Positions 30,123 through 59,758 of a stretch of DNA of 64,000 bases are shown here, piece by piece. Each line of letters begins with the position of its first letter. Positions within the stretch are counted from its first letter, which is position 1. The position numbers and the translations under genes are program-made. Source of the stretch: Ilex aquifolium (taxonomy: Eukaryota > Streptophyta > Magnoliopsida > Aquifoliales > Aquifoliaceae); contig OX637395.1 in the NCBI GenBank assembly GCA_951799425.1, positions 41,221,173 through 41,285,172 of the forward strand. Direction: 5' to 3'. The notes beneath the pieces are model-generated. The model was not told where the DNA came from, searched no databases, and saw nothing but the letters and a program-made list of their open reading frames with translations.

Positions 30123-30749
30123 ATGAGATCTCTCTCTCTCGCCACCTTCCTCATTTTCTCTCTCTTCTTGGTAAGAAATTCTCTGCTAGAAAGTCCAAGC
30201 ATCTATTTTTTTGTTGTATCTCAAGTTACTATTCAATCAGATCAAGTCACGATTCAATCAGATTAAGTAAAGATAAATAAAAAATTTGAGGTCAATCTCA
30301 ACTTGTTGGGATTGATGGATACCAGAGAACTTCTGAATCGATTCTAACATGTTAGAATCGGTTCAAAGTTCTTCAAGATCCATCTCAAAACTCGAGATTT
30401 TATTCGGTCGTAACTTGAGTTTGGTATCATTGTTTAATCATATTTTCTTGTATATATGATTCTACATCTTGTGTTTCAGTTTTCAGACCTTAGCAGTGCA
30501 AGAAAAGACCCAGAAGAGTACTGGAATAGCACAATGAAAGGAGAGCCCATGCCCAAAGCAATCAAAGACCTTTTCCATGAAGATCTTGCATCTCAATCCA
30601 CATCTTCTCAGGCTTCAAAAATGGATCATTTCATCAAGGATTTCGATCTCAAGCCTAGTGTTATAATCTATCACAGCCATATCAGGACCCCGAGGCGGGT
30701 TGCGAAACCGAAATCCGGCCCGAAAGCCAGAAATCTTTTGTTAGGCTAA
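30123..30749 (+). CDS. Organ-specific protein (S2/P4 family), OSP1, 105 aa
   Basis: Two exons, 30123-30170 and 30480-30749, phase 0, GT-AG. Exon 1 is 16 codons (MRSLSLATFLIFSLFL), a signal-peptide core that continues into exon 2 (FSDLSSA). The mature part has the family block RKDPEEYWNSTMKGEPMPKA followed by IKDLF, and one short repeat-like FDLKPSVIIYH. The tail is basic (RTPRRVAKPKSGPKA). The family is secreted, organ-specifically expressed and biochemically undefined. This member has one repeat, whereas OSP2 has nine and OSP3 three. No lesion. Confidence 0.85.
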
Positions 30750-47458: not shown

Positions 47459-48855
47459 TCAAGAAGTAGGCGATGAAATCCATACAAAATGATCTGCTTG
47501 GAAGAAGTGGCAAACAGGAAGCCCCGGCTCAGTGCCGAGCATACGAAAGGACACATGATTCCGGCTCCATTGAGTGGTGTCCGTGTGGCAAACAGCAACG
47601 GCATACACCTTAGCTCCATCCTCACCTGCCAGTAAAACCTTGAATACCCTAATCTTACTTTCTGTACTATGACAGTGGAAAACTGCATAAGGGTAACTCA
47701 GTCTGTGACAAGCCACCAAATTGGTAGCTGATATTTCTTTGGGTGCTGCCACGACAGTATAGTTCTGTACAAGAGTATTGGACTTAGAAGTGAGGTGAGT
47801 AGTGGTTAGAACTTTGATTTGGCTCTTCAATCCCAAAATACTACTCACAAAATCAAGCATCGATTCTAAGGAAGTAGCACAGGTCTTGGTCTCTCCTTCG
47901 ATAGGCTTAAACTCACATTGTCGAAGCGAATCTTCCATGACTTCGGCTTGGGGAGAGCCTTGAGAGAAGGAGAAGAGTTGAAGAATGTTTGTGAGTTCTC
48001 TTGATGAGAAAGGAATGGCATCAGCTTTTTCTCTGGGCAAAAACTTTGGAGATTTAGAAAGGTCCCAGTGTGGAAAATAGATCACCATTTTTTTCCCTGC
48101 TTTTAGATCCTCCATACGAAAGAACACGAACAACGAAGGGTCCATATGATCCATGTTCGATGATGGATAGGCATGGACATGCTCTGTATGTATGCCTCGG
48201 TGAGCATCGTTATCTTGCTTATCATGTACGTTATTGTCATGCTTGATACGAACATCCATGCTATGAAGCCGCAAAACGTTAGGGTGATTATCATCAACCT
48301 GAGCATAGGTCAGAGGATTCAGCTCATTATAGTGATCATTATTATATCCCTCTGTAGTCATGCATCTTTACCTGTTTCTTTACTTGATTTGTATTTGTTG
48401 ACTCTGTCCAATGTTTTTCAGTCATATCCCTGGCTCCACTTCCATGGGCACACTGCCAAAAAAAAAAAAAAACAAATCGAATATATACTTAATCAGGGTT
48501 TCCCTCATATGCTTTCTTAGATTTTCAATCAACTTTGTAACACGAAACTCACATATTCAGAGTGTAAATCCTCCTAAATACAATGAAAACAACCTTTAAA
48601 TGGGGTCTCTTGATGCTGAAATCTATATGCTTCCCTAAGTGAAGCCTCTTTAAACTTGAAAGCTCTCAAACAACAATTATATATATCTTTTACAACAATC
48701 GGAATCAAATGTTAAATGTAATGATAATTAGCTAAGTTCAGTGTCCTGGGTTTTGATTTGGGTTGAAGTATATTGTAAAGGATTTTGAGCTGGCTTATGC
48801 TTATGCTTACCAGGACTATTGAGAGGAGGAGGACGAAAGAAGCAGCTGATTCCAT
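47459..48855 (-). CDS. BURP-domain protein (321 aa)
   Basis: A secreted cell-wall protein of the BURP family. Three exons on the minus strand: 48855-48811 (15 codons, MESAASFVLLLSIVL, signal peptide), 48452-48372 (CAHGSGARDMTEKHWTESTN...) and 48298-47459. The second intron is short (73 nt, GTAAAG...GCTCAG) and is needed to keep frame. Exon 3 starts with a His/Asp/Asn-rich stretch, then the BURP domain: DPSLFVFFRMEDLKAGKKM, IPFSS near its start, C-EFKPIEGETKTCATSLESML, and the signature Cys-His pairs with spacing CH-X10-CH-X26-CH-X24-CH, ending PVCHFF...HFVW. The usual N-terminal EYWKxVLPxTPMP block is weak (ARDMTEKHW). Head-to-head with OSP2, 1.9 kb apart. Its promoter and exon 1 resemble those of OSP2 and OSP3. 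Confidence 0.9.
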
Positions 48856-49003
48856 CTCTTCAAAACTGTATGCTGATAATTTTTTTGATCTATTTAATTG
48901 TATGTAAACTCTTAAGACTTTGTTATTTATAGATGATCAAATGCCAGATATCTTATCCCAAGATGAAACCTCAAGATTCAAGTTGGCAATTTTCAATTAG
49001 CAA
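48856..49003 (-). promoter_or_regulatory. BURP gene proximal promoter and leader (shared module)
   Basis: Minus-strand TATA box TATAAATA at 48931-48924. Upstream is CTTGAATCTTGAGGTTTCA (about 48983-48965), and downstream a leader with AGATCAAAAAAATTATCAG. All three also occur, in the same order and spacing, in front of OSP2. Confidence 0.8.
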
Positions 49004-49547
49004 TATAAACAGTCACTTGGTGATGGAGCTCATTGCTTTCGGAATCGAGCAAGTAAGATTAAACTTGCACGGTTTTCCAACATTTGATATATAGTATAAG
49101 AAGCAAGACTTCAATAATATTTATCTTGTTTTCTTGGATATGAAGCATATTATATGCCATTGACTTCAATAATATTTAGCTTCCTTTAATTGCCAAGGAA
49201 ATGCCCAGCTCCAAAGTATTTGGTAGGCGGACAATCTCGTTGTTTATTATGCAAACCAAAAGGGTTGGAGGGTGCAGCTTTGATGACCGTTAAGTCATCT
49301 ACATTTTCGATGACTTCCTCCTAGGAGCTAGGTAGTTCGGAGAACTGGTTCTTTCTTGTCCATTTCATTTCTTCTATTGCGCCTATCTATTATGAAAAGT
49401 AGGGTCCTTGAACCCCAGTTATTTCAATATCCGTGTAGTAGAATAGGGAATCTGGTTATATCCGATTAGATATGATTCGAAAGTGAGGTCAACGTATTCG
49501 ATAGCACCTAGAAATATTATCAAGAATTTGGCCAAATGTCAAGGTCA

Positions 49548-49788
49548 GTAATTCATCTTCAACCTGGTGAAAATTCAAGTTCAACATTCAAATGAATTTT
49601 TAAATCTTGTGACAATTCATCTTCAACCTCCAAATGAATTTGTCAACTCTTTCGACAATTCATCTTCAACCTCCAAACTAATTTGTCAACTCTGGTGACA
49701 ATTCATCTTCGACCTCCAAATGTCTATCATGACAAGTCAGCTTCAATGTCCAAATCAAGGATCTTATCTAGTGACAATTCTTCTTCAA
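49548..49788. repeat. About 43-bp minisatellite, five imperfect units
   Basis: Units of GACAATTCATCTTCAACCTC plus CAAATGAATTTGTCAACTCT are repeated with growing divergence. It directly adjoins the 161-bp array to its right. Confidence 0.8.
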
Positions 49789-49789
49789 T

Positions 49790-50675
49790 CATGTGAATTC
49801 ATTCCTACTTATAATAGTTGAAATCTTGCTCCTTATATTGCCAAGTGGCTATTATATTGCTATATTTAAGGATCTCTATCACCAAGTGGCTATTATATTG
49901 CTATATTTAAGGTTCCAACTTGAATCTTGAGGTTTCAACTGATGGTCAGATATGTGAATTCATTCCTACTTATAATAGTTGAAATCTTGCTCCTTATATT
50001 GCCAAGTGGCTATTATATTGCTATATTTAAGGTTCCAACTTGAATCTTGAGGTTTCAACTGATAGTCAGATATGTGAATTCATTCCTACTTATAATAGTT
50101 GAAATCTTGCTCCTTATATTGCCAAGTGGCTATTATATTGCTATATTTAAGGATCTCTATCACCAAGTGGCTATTATATTGCTATATTTAAGGTTCCAAC
50201 TTGAATCTTGAGGTTTCAACTGATAGTCAGATATGTGAATTCATTCCTACTTATAATAGTTGAAATCTTGCTCCTTATATTGCCAAGTGGCTATTATATT
50301 GCTATATTTAAGGATCTCTATCACCAAGTGGCTATTATATTGCTATATTTAAGGTTCCAACTTGAATCTTGAGGTTTCAACTGATAGTCAGATATGTGAA
50401 TTCATTCCTACTTATAATAGTTGAAATCTTGCTCCTTATATTGCCAAGTGGCTATTATATTGCTATATTTAAGGATCTCTATCACCAAGTGGCTATTATA
50501 TTGCTATATTTAAGGTTCCAACTTGAATCTTGAGGTTTCAACTGATAGTCAGATATGTGAATTCATTCCTACTTATAATAGTTGAAATCTTGCTCCTTAT
50601 ATTGCCAAGTGGCTATTATATTGCTATATTTAAGGTTCCAACTTGAATCTTGAGGTTTCAGCTGATAGTCAGATA
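49790..50675. repeat. 161/120-bp minisatellite upstream of OSP2, built from promoter sequence
   Basis: Six units begin (TATGTGAATTCATTCCTA) at about 49790, 49951, 50071, 50232, 50393 and 50554. Spacings are 161, 120, 161, 161, 161 and 121 bp. Long units contain an extra 41 bp (GGATCTCTATCACCAAGTGG ...). Units are almost identical. Each ends in CTTGAATCTTGAGGTTTCA and GTCAGATAT, the element next to the TATA box of OSP2 and of the BURP gene. Confidence 0.95.
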
Positions 50676-50769
50676 TTTGACACTTGATCTATAAATGGCA
50701 TTGAGTTTTAGATCTTTCATGCAATCAGACAGATCAAAAAATTTATCAGTTTATTATAGTGTTGAAGCC
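50676..50769 (+). promoter_or_regulatory. OSP2 TATA box and leader
   Basis: ACTTGATCTATAAATGGCA holds TATAAAT at 50690-50696. The leader has AGATCAAAAAATTTATCAG and GTTGAAGCC directly before ATG. An ATG at 50698 lies upstream, but the homologous genes and the signal peptide favour the start at 50770. Confidence 0.75.
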
Positions 50770-51939
50770 ATGGGATCAGCTTATGCCTTCTTGGCTCTCC
50801 TCTCACTTGTCGTGGTAAGTATGAGTCAAACTCAAAATCCTGTTGTTTACTTCAAGCCAACTCACAATTTGGTACAATGAACTTAGCTAATTTATGTTAT
50901 TTATGTAATATTAGCATGATGAGTCTACCCTCTTCATACTTAGACTATAAGTACTTCTGACTCTCTCTCTCCCTCTCTGTTTTTTTTTTTTGTTTGTTCT
51001 GAGCAGTTTGCAAGCATAATAGATGCAAGACCCGACCCTCGAGAATACTGGAAAGGTGTCATGAAAGATCAACCCATGCCTGAAGTAATTCAGAATCTTA
51101 TCCATAAGGGTACGGAGGCACCTCATCTATCTGATAAGAAAACCGATTGTCAAACATCAATGGAGACGGGAAACAATGATAAGCTTGTTGGGAATTTCGA
51201 GAATACAAAAGATCAACTTTCTATGAAAGAATTTCAAGCAAGACATAATTCCAAAAGCTACAGATCCTATGGCAATACTCTACCAATGGAAGACAAGTTG
51301 GTGGTGAAAGAGTTTGAACCAAGACCTAATCCCAAAGTCTACGGAGCCTATGCTGATGCCATGCCAGTAGAAGGCAAGTCTTTGGTGAAAACATTTGAAC
51401 CAAGACCTAATCCCAAAGCCTATAGATCCTATGCAGATGCCTTGCCAATGGAGGACAAGTCATCGGTGAAAGTATTTGAACCAAGACCGAATCCCAAAGC
51501 CTACGGCGGATCCTATGCCAATGCCATGCCAATGAAAGACAAGTATTTGGTAAGAGAATTTGAACCAAGACCTAATCCCAAAGGTTACAAATCTTACGCC
51601 GATGCCTTGCCAATGGAGGACAAGTCATCGGTGAAAGTATTTGAACCAAGACCAAATCCCAAAGCCTACGGCGGATCCTATGCCAATGCCATGCCAATGG
51701 AAGACAAGTATTTGGTAAGAGAATTTGAACCAAGACCTAATCCCAAAGGTTACAAATCCTACGCCGATGCCATGCCGCTGGAAGAAGAGAATTCTTTGGT
51801 GAAAGAATTTGAACCAAGACCTAATCCGAAAGGCTACGGATCCTACATCATGCTGATGGAAGACAAGTTTTTGGTGAAAGAATTTGAACCAAGACCTAAT
51901 TCCAAAGGTTACAAATCCTATGCCGATGCCATGACCTAA
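50770..51939 (+). CDS. Organ-specific protein OSP2 with nine tandem repeats, 325 aa
   Basis: Exons 50770-50814 (15 codons, MGSAYAFLALLSLVV) and 51007-51939; phase 0, GT-AG. Exon 2 starts FASIIDARPDPREYWKGVMK then DQPMPEVIQNLIHKG, the defining organ-specific S2/P4 block. From about residue 90 there are nine repeats of 25-28 residues with consensus FEPRPNPKAYGSYADAMPME then DKSLVKE. Repeats 3-4 and 5-6 are nearly identical pairs, so the last expansion was a two-unit step of about 165 bp. The last repeat is cut short by TAA. Predicted secreted, basic-acidic and low complexity. Function in this family is unknown. Confidence 0.92.
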
Positions 51940-52250
51940 TCCCACCTTGATGGTAACCTAAAATAAGAGAAGCCATTGGTTGGAGATTTCGATCCAAGCC
52001 CAAGGTTTCTATTCTTAAGACTTATGCTTAAAACTTAGTATAATGGTGTCTACAATTTCAAAGCCATGTGAGAAGTAGATGGTCCATGTTTGTGTAATAT
52101 CTGGTGTAAAGTGTGTGATTATGTGTACTTAATAAAAAAGTGTGCGACAGTGGTGATGAAATTGAAGTTGCAAGGTTTTTTTTGTCTCTATAGTAAATTT
52201 ATGTTTTTACCTCTTTATCAAAGACACTGTTTAAAATAGAATACAAGAAT

Positions 52251-52252
<2 letters not shown>
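51940..52252 (+). other. OSP2 3' UTR region
   Basis: It shares AGAAGTAGATGGTCCATGTT and TGTGTAA with the DNA after OSP3. A possible poly(A) signal AATAAA lies at about 52130. Confidence 0.6.
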
Positions 52253-52288
<36 letters not shown>

Positions 52289-52295
52289 AAAAAAA
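52253..52295. repeat. C34 run followed by A9
   Basis: Thirty-four uninterrupted C (52253-52286), then nine A. On the other strand this is a G34 run able to form G-quadruplexes. Confidence 0.95.
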
Positions 52296-54244
52296 CCCTC
52301 AGATTGCAAAAAGGAGTTAAGATCTGTTTGGAAACAACGAGGTTGCATGCCCATTAGGCTGGGATCTGATATTTCTCTTATTTCTTCAGCAAAAAAAGAT
52401 AAAAAATTGTTTTTGTCTAATCAATTCGATCAACCAATCCTTCTTAAAATTGGTAATAACACTTGTATACATTGTGAGCGTACTAAGAAGAGTTTAAAAA
52501 AAATCTAACTGATATCGAATGATAATATACTTGTTGAATGTTAAGTACAAACGATAGAGGTAGATAGAAATTAACACGACTCCCCTTGAGATTTATTAAA
52601 AATACTTTATGTCTCGTTAGGTTTCAGAATTATAAAAAATTCCTTAAAGTTTAAAGTCAAGTAACAGTCAATTCCAACACACCAAATTACCTATATGCAT
52701 CACATACGCCACCAGAACAACCACACCAGCACACCCACCTCCACACAACAATAGCACCACCTAATTATGGGCGGAGTTAGGCTAGGCTACGTGTCTACTC
52801 TGAATATTTTTTGGCCAAAAGTTACAGGATTTTGTCTCTTCTCGATGCATTTTTCATTGGCATTCTTGCCTGCATACTTCCGAACATAACGAAGTAGCTG
52901 AGTGAAAATATTGCTAAGTGGTAACTATTAGTTGAACGGCTAGCTAATATATCCTCCATTATAAATAAGGCTCTCTGGATACATAGAGAACACACTTGAA
53001 AATACCCAATTTGAGAGAAAGCCCATTGAGTGAAAATCTCAACTCTACTACTTTTATATCAAAGAGAATTTCTAATTCTCAAAAACTAGCTCGCAATTCA
53101 GCAAATTTATCAAGTTGTATTTTGTAAATTTCCTACAAAGATGAATCGTCAGCAGATTCGATTATTGATTTCGTGGTAGGCCACACACTCTTATCTTGTT
53201 CCACATAACATGAAGTATGGGAGTGGTTTTCTGATATTGATGACATCATGGGCTATGTCAGGGGCTCCATGTTGCAAGCTGGCTAAGAAAGATGGTTGCA
53301 CATTTATATTCCTAGCCAAAATCATGCAATAACAAACTTTGAATGTCAGCTGAGACGATCTCTCTCAATCAAGAGGGGACCCTCTCAATTATTCAGTATT
53401 ACTTAATCGATTCCGAAAATGGGAAGAACTTAGAATGCATTTTGAAAAAAATGGAACAACTTAGAAAATATAGGGTACCCTCTTATGTTATTTCAATGAG
53501 GGCTCTAATTTACAGCCTTTCATAGGATGTCACTCTGCATAAGCAATTGACAGTATCCCCAACATGGCAATACAGCATTGGAAATCGGGTTCGCTCTATT
53601 CCAACTGATCGATTTTTCAGCCTACTGGCGCTCCATGCCTTTGATTTGACATAAGTTTTTTTATCTGTTTGGTGGAAATTTTGTCAAGAACAAAGTAATC
53701 ATAGGCCTGCTCTTTCGGCCATTTCCAAAGCAAAAAATGCTCACTGTAATTTGTTACGTTTGAATGAGACTCCCGGAATGTAATTTCTGTCAGATTATAT
53801 ATAAAACCTGGGCTAACTGATATACTGAAGGAATTCATATTAGAATCATGACTTTTTTTTTACTACTGCTCTTGTTTAGTTCTTCTTCTACACCTTGGTC
53901 AGGTTATAATGGTCTAGACTTTATCCCATTGTGAGCACTCTGATCCTTTCTCCTCTCTTCTTCCTTTTTTAAGAATAATATAGCAGAAGGGTTGAAGAAA
54001 AGGGAGTACACACACACACACACACATATATATGTATATATAAATATTTGTTGTAAGATACATCAGTATGGTATTTATGGCGCCATCCTGCTACAGCTGA
54101 AAAACTGAAATCAAAGATATGAGGTAGGATAGTGGGAGAGTTTTCTAATTGCATTATGGGGGTGGTCGGGGCTCCATGTTCAAGCTAAGCAATTTGTAGT
54201 ATATCCCCATGCAATAATAATCTGTGACTGTCTGATATCTTTAA
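52296..54244. other. Intergenic DNA between OSP2 and OSP3; an orphan TATA/leader and simple repeats
   Basis: CCATTATAAATAAGGCTCTC at 52957-52976 is a strong TATA box followed by a pyrimidine-rich leader to about 53140, but no long frame follows. GGGGCTCCATGTT with CATGCAATAA occurs near 53262-53331 and again near 54166-54220, a diverged duplication. (CA)n/(TA)n at 54009-54048. No gene is supported. Confidence 0.5.
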
Positions 54245-54427
54245 GAGTAATGCTACGCTGACCAAATTTTAGGACTAAATTAAGAGCCCAAATGACATAA
54301 CAATATATTACTTGGAATTTTTATTGGGGCCCAAATGACATGACACCAAATAAAGAAGCCCAAGTCAGCTGTCATGTCATTTGGGCTCTTAATTTGATCC
54401 CAAAATTTGGTCAGCATAGCATTGTTG
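54245..54427. mobile_element. Mutator-type MITE, 183 bp
   Basis: Ends GAGTAATGCTACGCTGACC and (inward) CAACAATGCTATGCTGACC. Perfect 9-bp duplication TATCTTTAA at 54236-54244 and 54428-54436. Long arms with GCCCAAATGACAT. Confidence 0.92.
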
Positions 54428-54597
54428 TATCTTTAAATCAAGGAGTCACCCACCCCATTGCTCACATTAATTACACAGATTCAAAAAAAAAAAGAAACAA
54501 AGGCAGCTCTATCATGCATAGACTATTACATTCCTATACTTAGTCGCCAACGTGAGCCTTGAAGTTTCAACATATCCTAATCAAAGTATATTTTATG

Positions 54598-54756
54598 CAG
54601 TAATGCTATGTTGATCAAATTAAGAGCCTAAATGACATGACATATTATTTAGAGTCTTTATTGGAGCCCAAATGACATGACACAAAATAAAGAAACCCAA
54701 GTCAGTTGTCATGTTATTTGGACTCTTAATTTGGTCATAAAATTTGGTCAGTACTG
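54598..54756. mobile_element. Mutator-type MITE, 159 bp, inserted in the OSP3 promoter
   Basis: Ends CAGTAATGCTATGTTGATC and (inward) CAGTACTGACCAAATTTTA. Perfect 9-bp duplication TATTTTATG at 54589-54597 and 54757-54765. Same family as 54245-54427. The insertion separates the upstream CTTGAAGTTTCA motif from the TATA box of OSP3. Confidence 0.92.
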
Positions 54757-54857
54757 TATTTTATGTGGTACTTGATCTATAAATAGCAAAGTGTGTTAGA
54801 CCTTTCAAAGCAGTGAAATCCACAGAAAAAACTATCAGTTTATAGGGGTTGGAAGAC
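54757..54857 (+). promoter_or_regulatory. OSP3 TATA box and leader
   Basis: TACTTGATCTATAAATAGCA holds TATAAATA at 54778-54785. The leader has AAAACTATCAGTTTATAGG before ATG at 54858, like OSP2. Confidence 0.75.
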
Positions 54858-55621
54858 ATGGGATCAGCTTCTGCTTTCTTCGCTCTCTTCTCACTTGTTC
54901 TGGTAAGTATAAGCCAACTCAAAATTCCATATAGTATGCTTGTTTAGAAACAATCGAACTAGATGAAACAATTCGGTGATCGAATCAAAATTTTAATCCT
55001 TCAAAGTGTTTCTAAATATTTCAGAATGTTTTCACCAGGAATGTTTTCGAAGTGTTTAAATGGTTGTACATTCAAACTTTCTATTTTTCCTTGATTACTT
55101 ACTTGGACATGCAGTTGGCGAAGACTCTAGATGCAAGACCAGACCATGGGAAATACTGGAAAGGTGTCGCAAAATATCAGCCCATGCCCGAAACAATTCA
55201 AAACCTATTTCAAAAGGGTTCGGAAATGCATCTGTCCAACAAGAAGACCGATTGTGACACATCAACAGAAAAAGGGTTTGAACCAAAGCCGAATGTTTTC
55301 CTCTACGCCTACTCTGATGAAGCCAAGCCAACAGAGGACAGACCTCTAGTGACAGATGCTAAGCAAGGAGGAGAGAAGTCCTCTGCGAAAGAATTTGAAC
55401 CAAAACCGAATTTGCTCTTCTACTACTCTGATGAAGCCAAGCCAACAGAGGACAAACCTCTAGTGACAGATGCTAAGCAAGGAGGAGAGAAGTCCTCTGC
55501 GAAAGAATTTGAACCAAAGCCGAATTTTCCCTTCTTCGCCTACTCTGATGAAGCCAAGCCAACTGAGGACAAACCTCTAGTGACAGATGCTAATCAAGGA
55601 GGAGAGAAGTCCTCTGCGTAA
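54858..55621 (+). CDS. Organ-specific protein OSP3 with three tandem repeats, 183 aa
   Basis: Exons 54858-54902 (15 codons, MGSASAFFALFSLVL) and 55115-55621; phase 0. Exon 2 begins LAKTLDARPDHGKYWKGVAK then YQPMPETIQNLFQKGSE, the family block. Then come three repeats of 37-39 residues, FEPKPN(x4-5)YSDEAKP, TEDKPLVTDAKQGGEKSSAK E. The repeat is longer than, and different from, that of OSP2. Only FEPxPN is shared, so the repeat parts expanded independently after duplication. Secreted by prediction. Confidence 0.92.
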
Positions 55622-57589: not shown

Positions 57590-58205
57590 CTTATTATGAG
57601 GGAGGTTTTGTTTACATGAGCAATAACTGTGGAGTAACTCATTGTTATTGCATCAAGGTACTGGCCCTTAAAAACTCTCTCTATAAATATTATATAATGA
57701 GTGATATTGGTCAGAATAAGTCACTGTTATTGCATCGAGGTACTCACCTTTCATCCATAAGTCACTGTGAGCAATGAGCTAGCTGATCACAAGTTCGTTC
57801 ATGGAAATAAAAAATGGGTGGTGGTGATGATATTGTCACTCTCGCTGAATTGTAAGATAATTCTAATAGTTGATTATTCATTGTAATAGTGATCTATCGA
57901 TTTTATATAAAAAAAAATTCACTTTGAAGCACAATCGTACAAGTAAACATTGTTATCTCCTGGTTCAAAATTTTACATCGAGAGTTTAAGACTTATTCAC
58001 CCCTTTTTGGTTACATCGCTATTAGTCAAGATTATTTCACTCTCACAAGGAAATCCATACAAGATGACCTTCTGGTAAGAAGTGGCACACGGGGGAAGTA
58101 CCCGGCTCAATGCCGAGCAAACCAAAGGCCATATGATTCCGACCCCATCAAGAGGTGTCCATGTGACAAAGAGCAACAGCTTCCACCTTTTCTCCATTAG
58201 CATGT
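57590..58205 (-). pseudogene. BURP-domain C-terminal remnant with duplicated 3' flank
   Basis: About 58203-58035 on the minus strand reads NGEKVEAVALCHMDTS, a stop, WGRNHMAFGLLGIEPGTSPV, CHFLPEGHLVWISL. This matches the last 55 or so residues of the BURP gene at 47459. No upstream BURP exons are seen. Its 3' flank (57640-57790) repeats TTATTGCATCGAGGTACTCA, and the intact BURP gene has TTAGTGCATCGAGGTACTCA near 47065. So this is the worn end of a segmental duplication, not retroposition. Confidence 0.82.
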
Positions 58206-59758
58206 TTAAGAATAGAGATATTGTACCATCTCATTTCCTTAAAGACAGCAATGATATTTGACCCACATAAAAGATAGACCAGGAAATCACAAAGTGCTAA
58301 AAATGTTGTTGAGTGTCGATTGCCACTTCATGAGTGCATTTGTACTAGGTGTTCGTGGAAAAAATATTATTTTATCCTACTTGGTTTAAGGTCATATGTT
58401 TTAGAATTTCTTTTCTCTCTCATGCTGTGTTAGAGATCGTTTTCAATATAGATAAAGTTTGTATTTGGTATGGACTAGACTCTTCTGAGTTTTACGCTTG
58501 TATGTTCTTGTACACATATTTTGACCTCCAATGTACATTTTATGTTATAAATCGTGCAATAAAACATGTTTGTACCACTTGACTAATGCATACTGCGCCA
58601 TGGGTTAGAAACAAATTATTTTGCAAATGCTACTTTATGAACTTCAAGTTGATGAAATTACTTAGCTCAAATTTTAAATAAAGAGCTAAAGCATTAGTAA
58701 CTCTCATGAAAAGTTTGGAAATGTGGGGGTATAATTAAAAAGATATTTGATGGACATGCAATTTGAATTTTCGTTACATGCAATGGTTTCGTTATATGTC
58801 TGTTTGTAATGAGGATTGTAATGAGGATTACAATGATCTGTTGAGATCTTTATTGATTGTGGTGGCACTTAAAATCTTGTCAGACAAATATATTTTAATG
58901 TGGTGTTTATCTTTGATGTTTGAAAGACTGGTCAGGTCAATATCAAATAGAGGAATTAATAAGGCGTGCACGCCCGAGCGACATTCAACTGTGAAAAATG
59001 ATGATTCTATATTAAAATTATAAATTTCAGTCAAACAAAGCTGATAAATAATTATAGAGCTTTCGTGGAAAGTCATGAGATGTAAATATACAAAATATGA
59101 TCTATTTCATTAACGAGCTTTCGAGAAAAGCCGAGCTTTTGAGAAAAGCTGTCTCAAGAACTGTCGTGGGGGATGTGCTCAAGCCCGCAAAGGAGTCACC
59201 TAGGGAGGTAACCCAACTTCTGTGATTGGGGACCCCATGAAGGAAGTTTAATGGGTAGAAACATTTCATACTGCATGACTCATTAGCACCGTTAATGAGA
59301 AAATATCCTAAGAGGAGATATTTTCATGTTCATCCTTATGGCAAAGGTGCATATGTAGTGTGACGGTAAGGAAGAATTTTATCCTGAATGAGACCGAGGC
59401 AGGAACACTCCTGCAGGGTATTGTGCACATGTACTCTTGGATGACTCACCTAAGTGAGAGTAGTCGTGAGGCCGCGACTATGAGGATTGGACTATTCTCT
59501 AGAAACTCTCATGAGAATCAAGATCAAGTGCATGACCATTAAACGCACTAACTCACGAATCCTGATCAATATCGATATTGTGTGTGTGATAGTTGAACTC
59601 TAGCTCAAAGAGTCTAGTTTAAGCCTTTGGTCACTATGATCCTTTAGAGGGAGGTTGTCAATACTAAGTACGGTTCAAGTCCAAAAGAAACATACACCCA
59701 TTGCACACTATTATAGTTGCTCTAATTTTTCTATGTTCATTTTATGCATATATATATA
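58206..59758. other. Unclassified intergenic DNA, possibly an old retroelement relic
   Basis: 59140-59640 is less AT-rich than its surroundings. Phrases such as GGGGATGTGCTCAAGCCCGC and GAGTCACCTAGGGAGG remind me of non-coding parts of large non-autonomous LTR elements (LARD type). I cannot place LTRs, a primer site or coding domains, so the assignment is tentative. Confidence 0.3.

Follow-up and report, generated by a model that had tools for sequence, protein, structure and literature searches.

A holly BURP gene with the beginning of its neighbours: probable capture of a PF10950 promoter and signal exon

How do genes of two protein families, one encoding BURP-domain proteins and the other PF10950 (organ-specific) proteins, come to begin with the same promoter, leader and signal-peptide exon? 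The question arises in a 64,000-nucleotide stretch of holly (Ilex aquifolium) DNA, called the window here (G000:C5:41221173-41285172), which was analysed together with searches of the genome (800 Mb in 103 contigs). We use BURPw for the window's BURP gene, OSP2 and OSP3 for two PF10950 genes of the window, L007 and L008 for further BURP genes on C5, OSP4 for a PF10950 gene of C5 outside the window, and C6a-d for the BURP genes of C6. Our answer is that one BURP lineage very probably took the 5' module of a PF10950 gene, with the join in intron 1, and that the chimera was later duplicated, leaving a cyclase/precursor cassette that would share expression and export. The parts of BURPw and the first exons that it resembles are as follows.

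48726..49120, minus strand: probable captured 5' module of BURPw (promoter, TATA region, leader, signal exon and about 85 bases of intron 1), from alignment to OSP4 and OSP2
48811..48855, minus strand: BURPw exon 1, MESAASFVLLLSIVL, 15 codons, phase 0, a signal exon of PF10950 type
48719..48726, minus strand: junction zone of the chimeric intron 1, +129 to +136, PF10950-like to +129 and BURP-like from +136
48453..48719, minus strand: BURP-native rest of intron 1, from the split shuffle test
48384..48452, minus strand: first part of BURPw exon 2, CAHGSGARDMTEKHW.., the native BURP start of the mature protein
48299..48383, minus strand: putative short intron 2 of BURPw, 85 or 73 nt, with GT..AG ends; it keeps the BURP frame open
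47459..48298, minus strand: coding part of the BURP domain (PF03181), CH-motif spacers 10-26-24
50605..50892, plus strand: donor-type 5' module at OSP2, -165 to +122, from blastn and local alignment
50770..50814, plus strand: OSP2 exon 1, MGSAYAFLALLSLVV, 15 codons, phase 0
54858..54902, plus strand: OSP3 exon 1, MGSASAFFALFSLVL, 15 codons, phase 0

The preliminary description of this DNA had named a series of elements common to BURPw and OSP2, and pattern search, shuffles and alignment all find them present, far above chance. The 19-mer CTTGAATCTTGAGGTTTCA lies at 48964-48982 (minus strand) in BURPw and at six sites between 49919 and 50660 (plus strand) upstream of OSP2; a search that allowed up to two mismatches gave 7 matches, against 0 in 100 shuffles. 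Genome-wide there are eight exact copies (one at BURPw, six at OSP2 and one at OSP4), and the reversed 19-mer, used as a control pattern, has 0 matches. The AGATCAAAAAA..TTATCAG leader with a 15-codon, phase-0 exon 1 is likewise there in BURPw (48855-48811), OSP2 (50770-50814) and OSP3 (54858-54902). Pairwise z-scores of promoter, exon 1 and intron start were taken against 150 dinucleotide shuffles. For BURPw against OSP2 and OSP4, they are 37 and 39 over the 200 bases before the ATG, so that the 5' similarity does not fall to background in alignment, 3.8 and 11 in exon 1, and 18 and 17 in the first 100 bases of intron 1. For OSP3, which had been said to have the same elements around a miniature inverted-repeat transposable element (MITE), the TATA region, leader and exon 1 (z 11 before the ATG) and the MITE-like repeats are found, but its 19-mer differs by more than two bases.

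The shared stretch exists as described but is longer than claimed, running upstream to about -260 and some 85 bases into intron 1. By blastn, BURPw matches OSP4 from -259 to +129 (72.8% over 390 columns, E 3.7e-55) and OSP2 from -165 to +129 (E 8.6e-38), and a full local alignment of the BURPw module starts at -265. Similarity reaches the C6 gene OSP_C6a as well (blastn of the 5' regions, 69.8% over 159 columns, E 1.9e-14). All four rows of a genome search with the BURPw module were BURPw, L007, OSP4 and OSP2, and all ten rows with the OSP2 module were OSP2, OSP4, BURPw, OSP3, L007 and five array copies; please note that these searches are too insensitive for the C6 PF10950 genes, which local alignment does detect. 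The idea that the module came from a dispersed repeat or a transposon was considered and rejected: within the sensitivity of the search, module and 19-mer occur only in these genes.

The decisive observation concerns intron 1 of BURPw. Because similarity to PF10950 genes ends at +129 and similarity to BURP genes starts at +136, this intron is a chimera, part PF10950 and part BURP, and the homology switches sharply within a 7-base zone. Against L008, a native BURP gene, blastn aligns BURPw from +136 on and no earlier (71.4% over 175 columns, E 3.7e-17). For a split test, the left part of BURPw (-265 to +130) and the right part (+136 to +386) were each compared with 300 shuffles. The left part gives z 93 with OSP4 (score 255), 67 with OSP2, 34 with OSP3 and 26 with OSP_C6a; this 395-base module shows no similarity to L008, C6a, C6c or C6d (z -0.1 to 0.1). 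The right part gives z 34 with L008, 7.3 with C6a and 7.6 with C6c, with nothing in C6d and z -0.9 to -0.1 in four PF10950 genes. Intron 1 is in phase 0 in all donor and recipient genes, whose first exons have 15, 18 and 19 codons, so the frame survived the swap. L007 carries this chimera too, with a different insertion in the intron; it is therefore an independent copy, which makes misassembly unlikely. The insertion in intron 1 of L007 (C5:41300867, minus strand) is of about 200 bases, flanked by a GAACTTAGCTAATTATC repeat, and is probably a mobile-element insertion.

Which family received the module? The other five BURP paralogues, which we call native, have other signal exons: MAPGFHTWSLFLLLLVIL in L008, MGLKLA..SLFLLLLVLL in C6a-c and MGSGFAFHSLLLCVLLILQ in C6d. 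L008 (on C5) and C6a-c have a common 5' module of their own at -24 to +80 (74-76%), and C6d is a third type. The shared module is thus found in 2 of the 7 cluster BURP genes and is missing from 5 of 7; 6 of the 8 PF10950 genes have it, the two short SST genes having a different exon 1, and the PF10950-type leader and exon 1 are present in PF10950 genes of both chromosomes. The native genes tested for 5' similarity were L008, C6a, C6c and C6d, with C6b left out at 96-97% identity to C6a/C6c; in these four, 5' similarity to the repeat-type PF10950 genes is lacking (five genes compared, no z above 2.6). A tree of BURP DNA groups BURPw with L007 (support 100/100) and joins L008 to them (99/98), with the C6 genes outside. 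By parsimony over signal exons, tests and tree, it was one BURP lineage that received the PF10950 module.

The protein behind the chimeric intron is a BURP protein. Read through, the BURPw frame runs into a stop; with the putative intron 2 spliced it gives 317 or 321 amino acids. L007 is open over 318 amino acids without intron 2 and most of BURPw's intron-2 stretch is absent from it; the stretch at 48299-48383 is possibly an intron gained from exon sequence. BURPw scores 264.9 bits against Pfam BURP, and all four of its CH pairs are kept in alignment with AhyBURP 8SY2 (E 1.4e-13). The CH spacers are 10-26-24 in BURPw and L008, 10-27-24 in L007 and 10-26-25 in C6a-d. Both BURPw and L007 have a single, stand-alone BURP domain, and no repeats were seen in the N-terminal part of either. 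Over 216 codons, the two differ by 0.037 nonsynonymous substitutions per site (Ka) and 0.151 synonymous ones (Ks). The resulting Ka/Ks of about 0.25 argues that selection has kept the BURP domain of both chimeric genes.

What would such a BURP gene have to do with its neighbours? Excerpts of four reports (PMC11253845, PMC12186524, PMC11250218, PMC11991032) describe stand-alone BURP proteins as copper-dependent peptide cyclases that act on separate repeat precursors, and propose PF10950 ST/SST proteins as those precursors, their genes often being adjacent and co-expressed, as with Arabidopsis SST1/USPL1. A precursor that is co-expressed yet not co-localised is described in a part of PMC12871766, and S/TxY-rich precursors with no known product are called common in a passage of PMC11250218. 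In these reports, a BURP gene together with PF10950 genes makes up the known split burpitide (cyclopeptide alkaloid) cassette. Separate PF10950 precursor-like genes with repeats do adjoin BURPw.

51007..51939, plus strand: OSP2 exon 2, PF10950 precursor-like protein (325 aa, amino acids, in all), FEPRPNPKxYxSY repeats
55115..55621, plus strand: OSP3 exon 2, PF10950 precursor-like protein (183 aa in all)

They score 146.4 bits (OSP2) and 74.8 bits (OSP3) against the PF10950 Pfam model. Repeats are of the FEPRPNPKxYxSY type in OSP2 and FEPKPN-LLFYYS-like in OSP3, of the FEPRPN(A/I/L)SVY type in the C6 genes, and DFDxKPSVIIY-like segments stand in the SST genes. By eye, a Phe flanked by charged residues lies about seven positions ahead of a Tyr-ending segment, KEFEPRPNPKAYRSY in OSP2 and KEFEPKPNLLFYYS in OSP3, with uncertain core borders. 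A cyclase of the BURPw type would act on Tyr-ending cores in such precursor repeats, and by comparison with the described systems we infer that the BURPw protein may be an active cyclase on precursors of the OSP2/OSP3 type. The cassettes ArbB2/ArbA2 of Coffea arabica and Arabidopsis USPL1/SST1 (PMC12186524, PMC11253845, PMC11991032) are alike in that a stand-alone BURP gene stands beside PF10950/ST tandem-repeat genes, and perhaps also in the Phe among charged residues that precedes a Tyr-containing repeat core; co-localisation is reported to be usual there, not universal. Clustering and co-expression are what those excerpts describe for ArbB2/ArbA2 and USPL1/SST1, whereas the holly BURPw bears the precursor family's own promoter, leader and signal exon. 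The chimeric tandem-duplication genes of Drosophila yakuba (sections of PMC5460883) are similar in that a neighbour's 5' end was acquired and a new expression pattern with it; here, by contrast, the donor encodes the probable substrate of the recipient enzyme, the setting is a plant specialised-metabolism cluster and the intron junction is visible. On the best reading, the BURP gene would have acquired the expression pattern of the precursor family together with its export signal.

In frog skin peptide genes, unrelated secreted products have a common 5' region and signal exon; there the export exon is shared by peptide with peptide, here by an enzyme with its precursor. No report of an enzyme gene taking its substrate's promoter in this way was found in the open-licence literature, though this does not prove that none exists.

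It is still debated how co-regulation arises among the clustered biosynthetic genes of plants, and the join inside an intron suggests one route by which the genes of an enzyme and its substrate may become jointly controlled. If true, promoter capture would be a direct route to a co-regulated cassette for a plant RiPP (ribosomally synthesized and post-translationally modified peptide), with no transcription factor having to evolve sites in two promoters. It could be, although we put this forward only tentatively, that selection kept the chimera because enzyme and substrate become co-expressed and co-exported.

Several observations weigh against capture as told here, or against its usefulness. 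The BURPw gene model depends on the putative short intron 2. BURPw, L007 and L008 have a third CH spacer of 24, as against 25-26 in the published copper-site motif, CHX10CHX25-27CHX25-26CH (given in a part of PMC11250218). Among the 72 cells that compare native BURP with PF10950 genes, one (C6d intron against SST_C6) reaches z 4.5, above all 150 shuffles, and two more cells with SST genes are high (L008 promoter z 3.8, C6c intron z 3.7). The protein tree leaves L008 unresolved, and a grouping of all native BURP genes is rejected only marginally (approximately unbiased (AU) test, p 0.045). With p-distances of 0.25-0.28 throughout, the module tree does not tell whether the capture preceded or followed the C5/C6 split. 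Extra conservation of promoter and leader over the intron was looked for among the module copies and not found; as promoter and leader diverge like the intron, there is no sign of extra regulatory constraint. In L007, finally, the leader block is largely deleted and the 19-mer is split by 4 bases.

These last points bear on the explanation that survives best beside ours, namely that the module was indeed captured but that this was neutral: the rearrangement would have arisen by chance, in a cluster that duplicates fast, and left co-expression unchanged. We regard this as possible, if rather doubtful. It is favoured by a promoter that is no better conserved than the intron, by the partly deleted leader and interrupted 19-mer of L007, and by the persistence of BURP genes with native promoters in the same cluster. 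The low Ka/Ks (0.25) of the chimeric genes after duplication speaks against it, as does the survival of the chimera since about the BURPw/L008 split (intron divergence 0.26, against 0.06-0.08 between BURPw and L007). It is worthwhile to remember that the cluster is a natural experiment: BURP genes with captured and with native promoters occur in one genome, so a comparison of their expression with that of the precursors would directly test co-regulation by promoter takeover.

When and how would the capture have happened? Ks is 0.151 for BURPw and L007, 0.469 for BURPw and L008, 0.547-0.569 for BURPw and C6a-c, 0.227 for OSP2 and OSP4 (74 codons) and 0.461 for SST_C5 and SST_C6 (75 codons). Non-coding divergence (Kimura two-parameter distance) is 0.18-0.27 from BURPw to OSP2/OSP4, 0.257 in the BURPw-L008 intron, 0.06-0.08 for BURPw and L007 and 0.10-0.12 for OSP2 and OSP4. 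From these synonymous and non-coding divergences, the capture dates roughly to the BURPw/L008 split and clearly before the duplication of the BURP/PF10950 unit; Ks dating is too coarse to order it against the C5/C6 split. In the proposed sequence of events, the BURP lineage would have swapped its own promoter, leader and signal exon for those of a PF10950 gene of the same cluster, and a later duplication of the chimera with its divergent PF10950 neighbour would have given the units BURPw/OSP2 and L007/OSP4. Physically, tandem genes may have been fused by a deletion, or the head-to-head neighbour may have supplied an inverted copy. In BURPw, the sequence ahead of the captured module yielded no remnant of a native promoter (E 1e-4, length at least 30).

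Instead of one capture, continuing gene conversion within each head-to-head pair, between its inverted 5' arms, could be invoked, and the setting permits it, the arms being about 1.5 kb apart in opposite orientation. We find this very unlikely: the module tree joins BURPw with L007 (100/99) and OSP2 with OSP4 (92/92), not the members of a pair, and trees that unite the members of a pair fail the test (AU p 1.4e-5 and 5.9e-11). Within-pair conversion since the unit duplication is thereby rejected; an initial inverted copying event may have been the mechanism of the capture itself.

The preliminary description had offered capture and common ancestry as its two options and leaned to the second. 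The intron switch and the native genes favour capture; ancestry does not hold for the module. Under common ancestry, BURP and PF10950 genes would descend from one fused ancestor and both have inherited the 5' module. Both families do close their signal-peptide exon with a phase-0 intron, and exon 2 starts with an ARxxxxxYW-like stretch in both (AREMTEKYW in L007, ARPDPREYW in OSP2); an Ax6YWx7PMP consensus in BURP proteins is already published (in a part of PMC11991032). We nevertheless consider a fused ancestor highly improbable as the source of the module, and reject it, because native BURP genes would then carry the module too, and they do not. Moreover, module p-distances between BURPw and PF10950 genes (0.25-0.28) equal those among PF10950 genes (0.23-0.30) and are too low for families that span the core eudicots, and the similarity breaks off abruptly in intron 1. 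The EYWK..PMP block, which had been taken to support a common origin, does not do so for the 5' module: it is separate, older and in the BURP-native part. At the start of exon 2, the EYWK-like trace gives a weak profile match (hhalign probability 28%, E 6e-4, one template), and exon 2 opens with an AR..-like stretch in native and chimeric BURP genes alike. This resemblance may reflect ancient kinship or shared function. Two things that had been merged are thus parted: a possible ancient link between the BURP and PF10950 N-termini, and a much later transfer of the 5' module.

That the transfer ran the other way, from the BURP lineage to the PF10950 genes, would also put the module in both families and is scarcely credible, since PF10950 genes of both chromosomes have it, with similarity that continues into their own intron and exon 2, and only 2 of the 7 cluster BURP genes do, the chimeric intron being theirs.

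In the wider setting, the genome search gave 26 BURP rows, counted exon by exon and spread over several contigs, and 17 PF10950 rows, all 17 within the C5 and C6 clusters. The C5 cluster comprises a short SST-type PF10950 gene, BURPw, OSP2, OSP3, a BURP fragment, L008, L007 and OSP4, and the C6 cluster the PF10950/BURP pairs a, b and c and the SST/BURP pair d. Pairs are arranged head to head in both; the C5 units are BURPw/OSP2 in the window and L007/OSP4 outside it, L007 lying 31 kb from BURPw. Among the matches listed, the C5 flank at 41310123-41310749 matches C6 3620707-3620072, inverted, at 81%, which fits sister clusters that arose by chromosome duplication. Further features of the window are listed here.

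30123..30170, plus strand: exon 1 of a short, SST-type PF10950 gene, MRSLSLATFLIFSLFL; its PF10950 match is in exon 2 at 30504-30677
49882..50660, or 49791..50660 in a wider delimitation, plus strand: tandem array upstream of OSP2 with six 19-mer copies; 161-base units, 3.9 copies, 100% match
54249-54423 and 54612-54737, no strand assigned: two MITE-like inverted-repeat elements upstream of OSP3

Each 161-base unit of the array bears the 19-mer, with six copies at OSP2 and one exact copy at OSP4; a segment of the promoter was amplified here very recently. Also upstream of OSP2, at 49559-49722, is a 43-base tandem repeat (TCAACTCTTGTGACAATTCATCTTCAACCTCCAAATGAATTTG); many relatives of it precede OSP4, and short matches occur ahead of the native BURP genes L008 (-124 to -80) and C6a (about -670 to -630). 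The SST-type gene of C5 (30123-30677) has one DFDLKPSVIIYH segment and a counterpart in the C6 cluster (Ks 0.46). In all three C6 PF10950 genes a-c (L009, L010, L013), the EYWKGV block that the other PF10950 genes have is degenerate (ENSQGT) and the FEPRPN-xSVY-type repeats are kept. OSP4 (C5:41306282-41308015) has a frame shift inside its repeats, which cuts the predicted precursor to 251 amino acids, with more repeats in another frame. Near OSP3, a BURP gene fragment at 58052-58240 (minus strand) has an internal stop and is probably a pseudogene.

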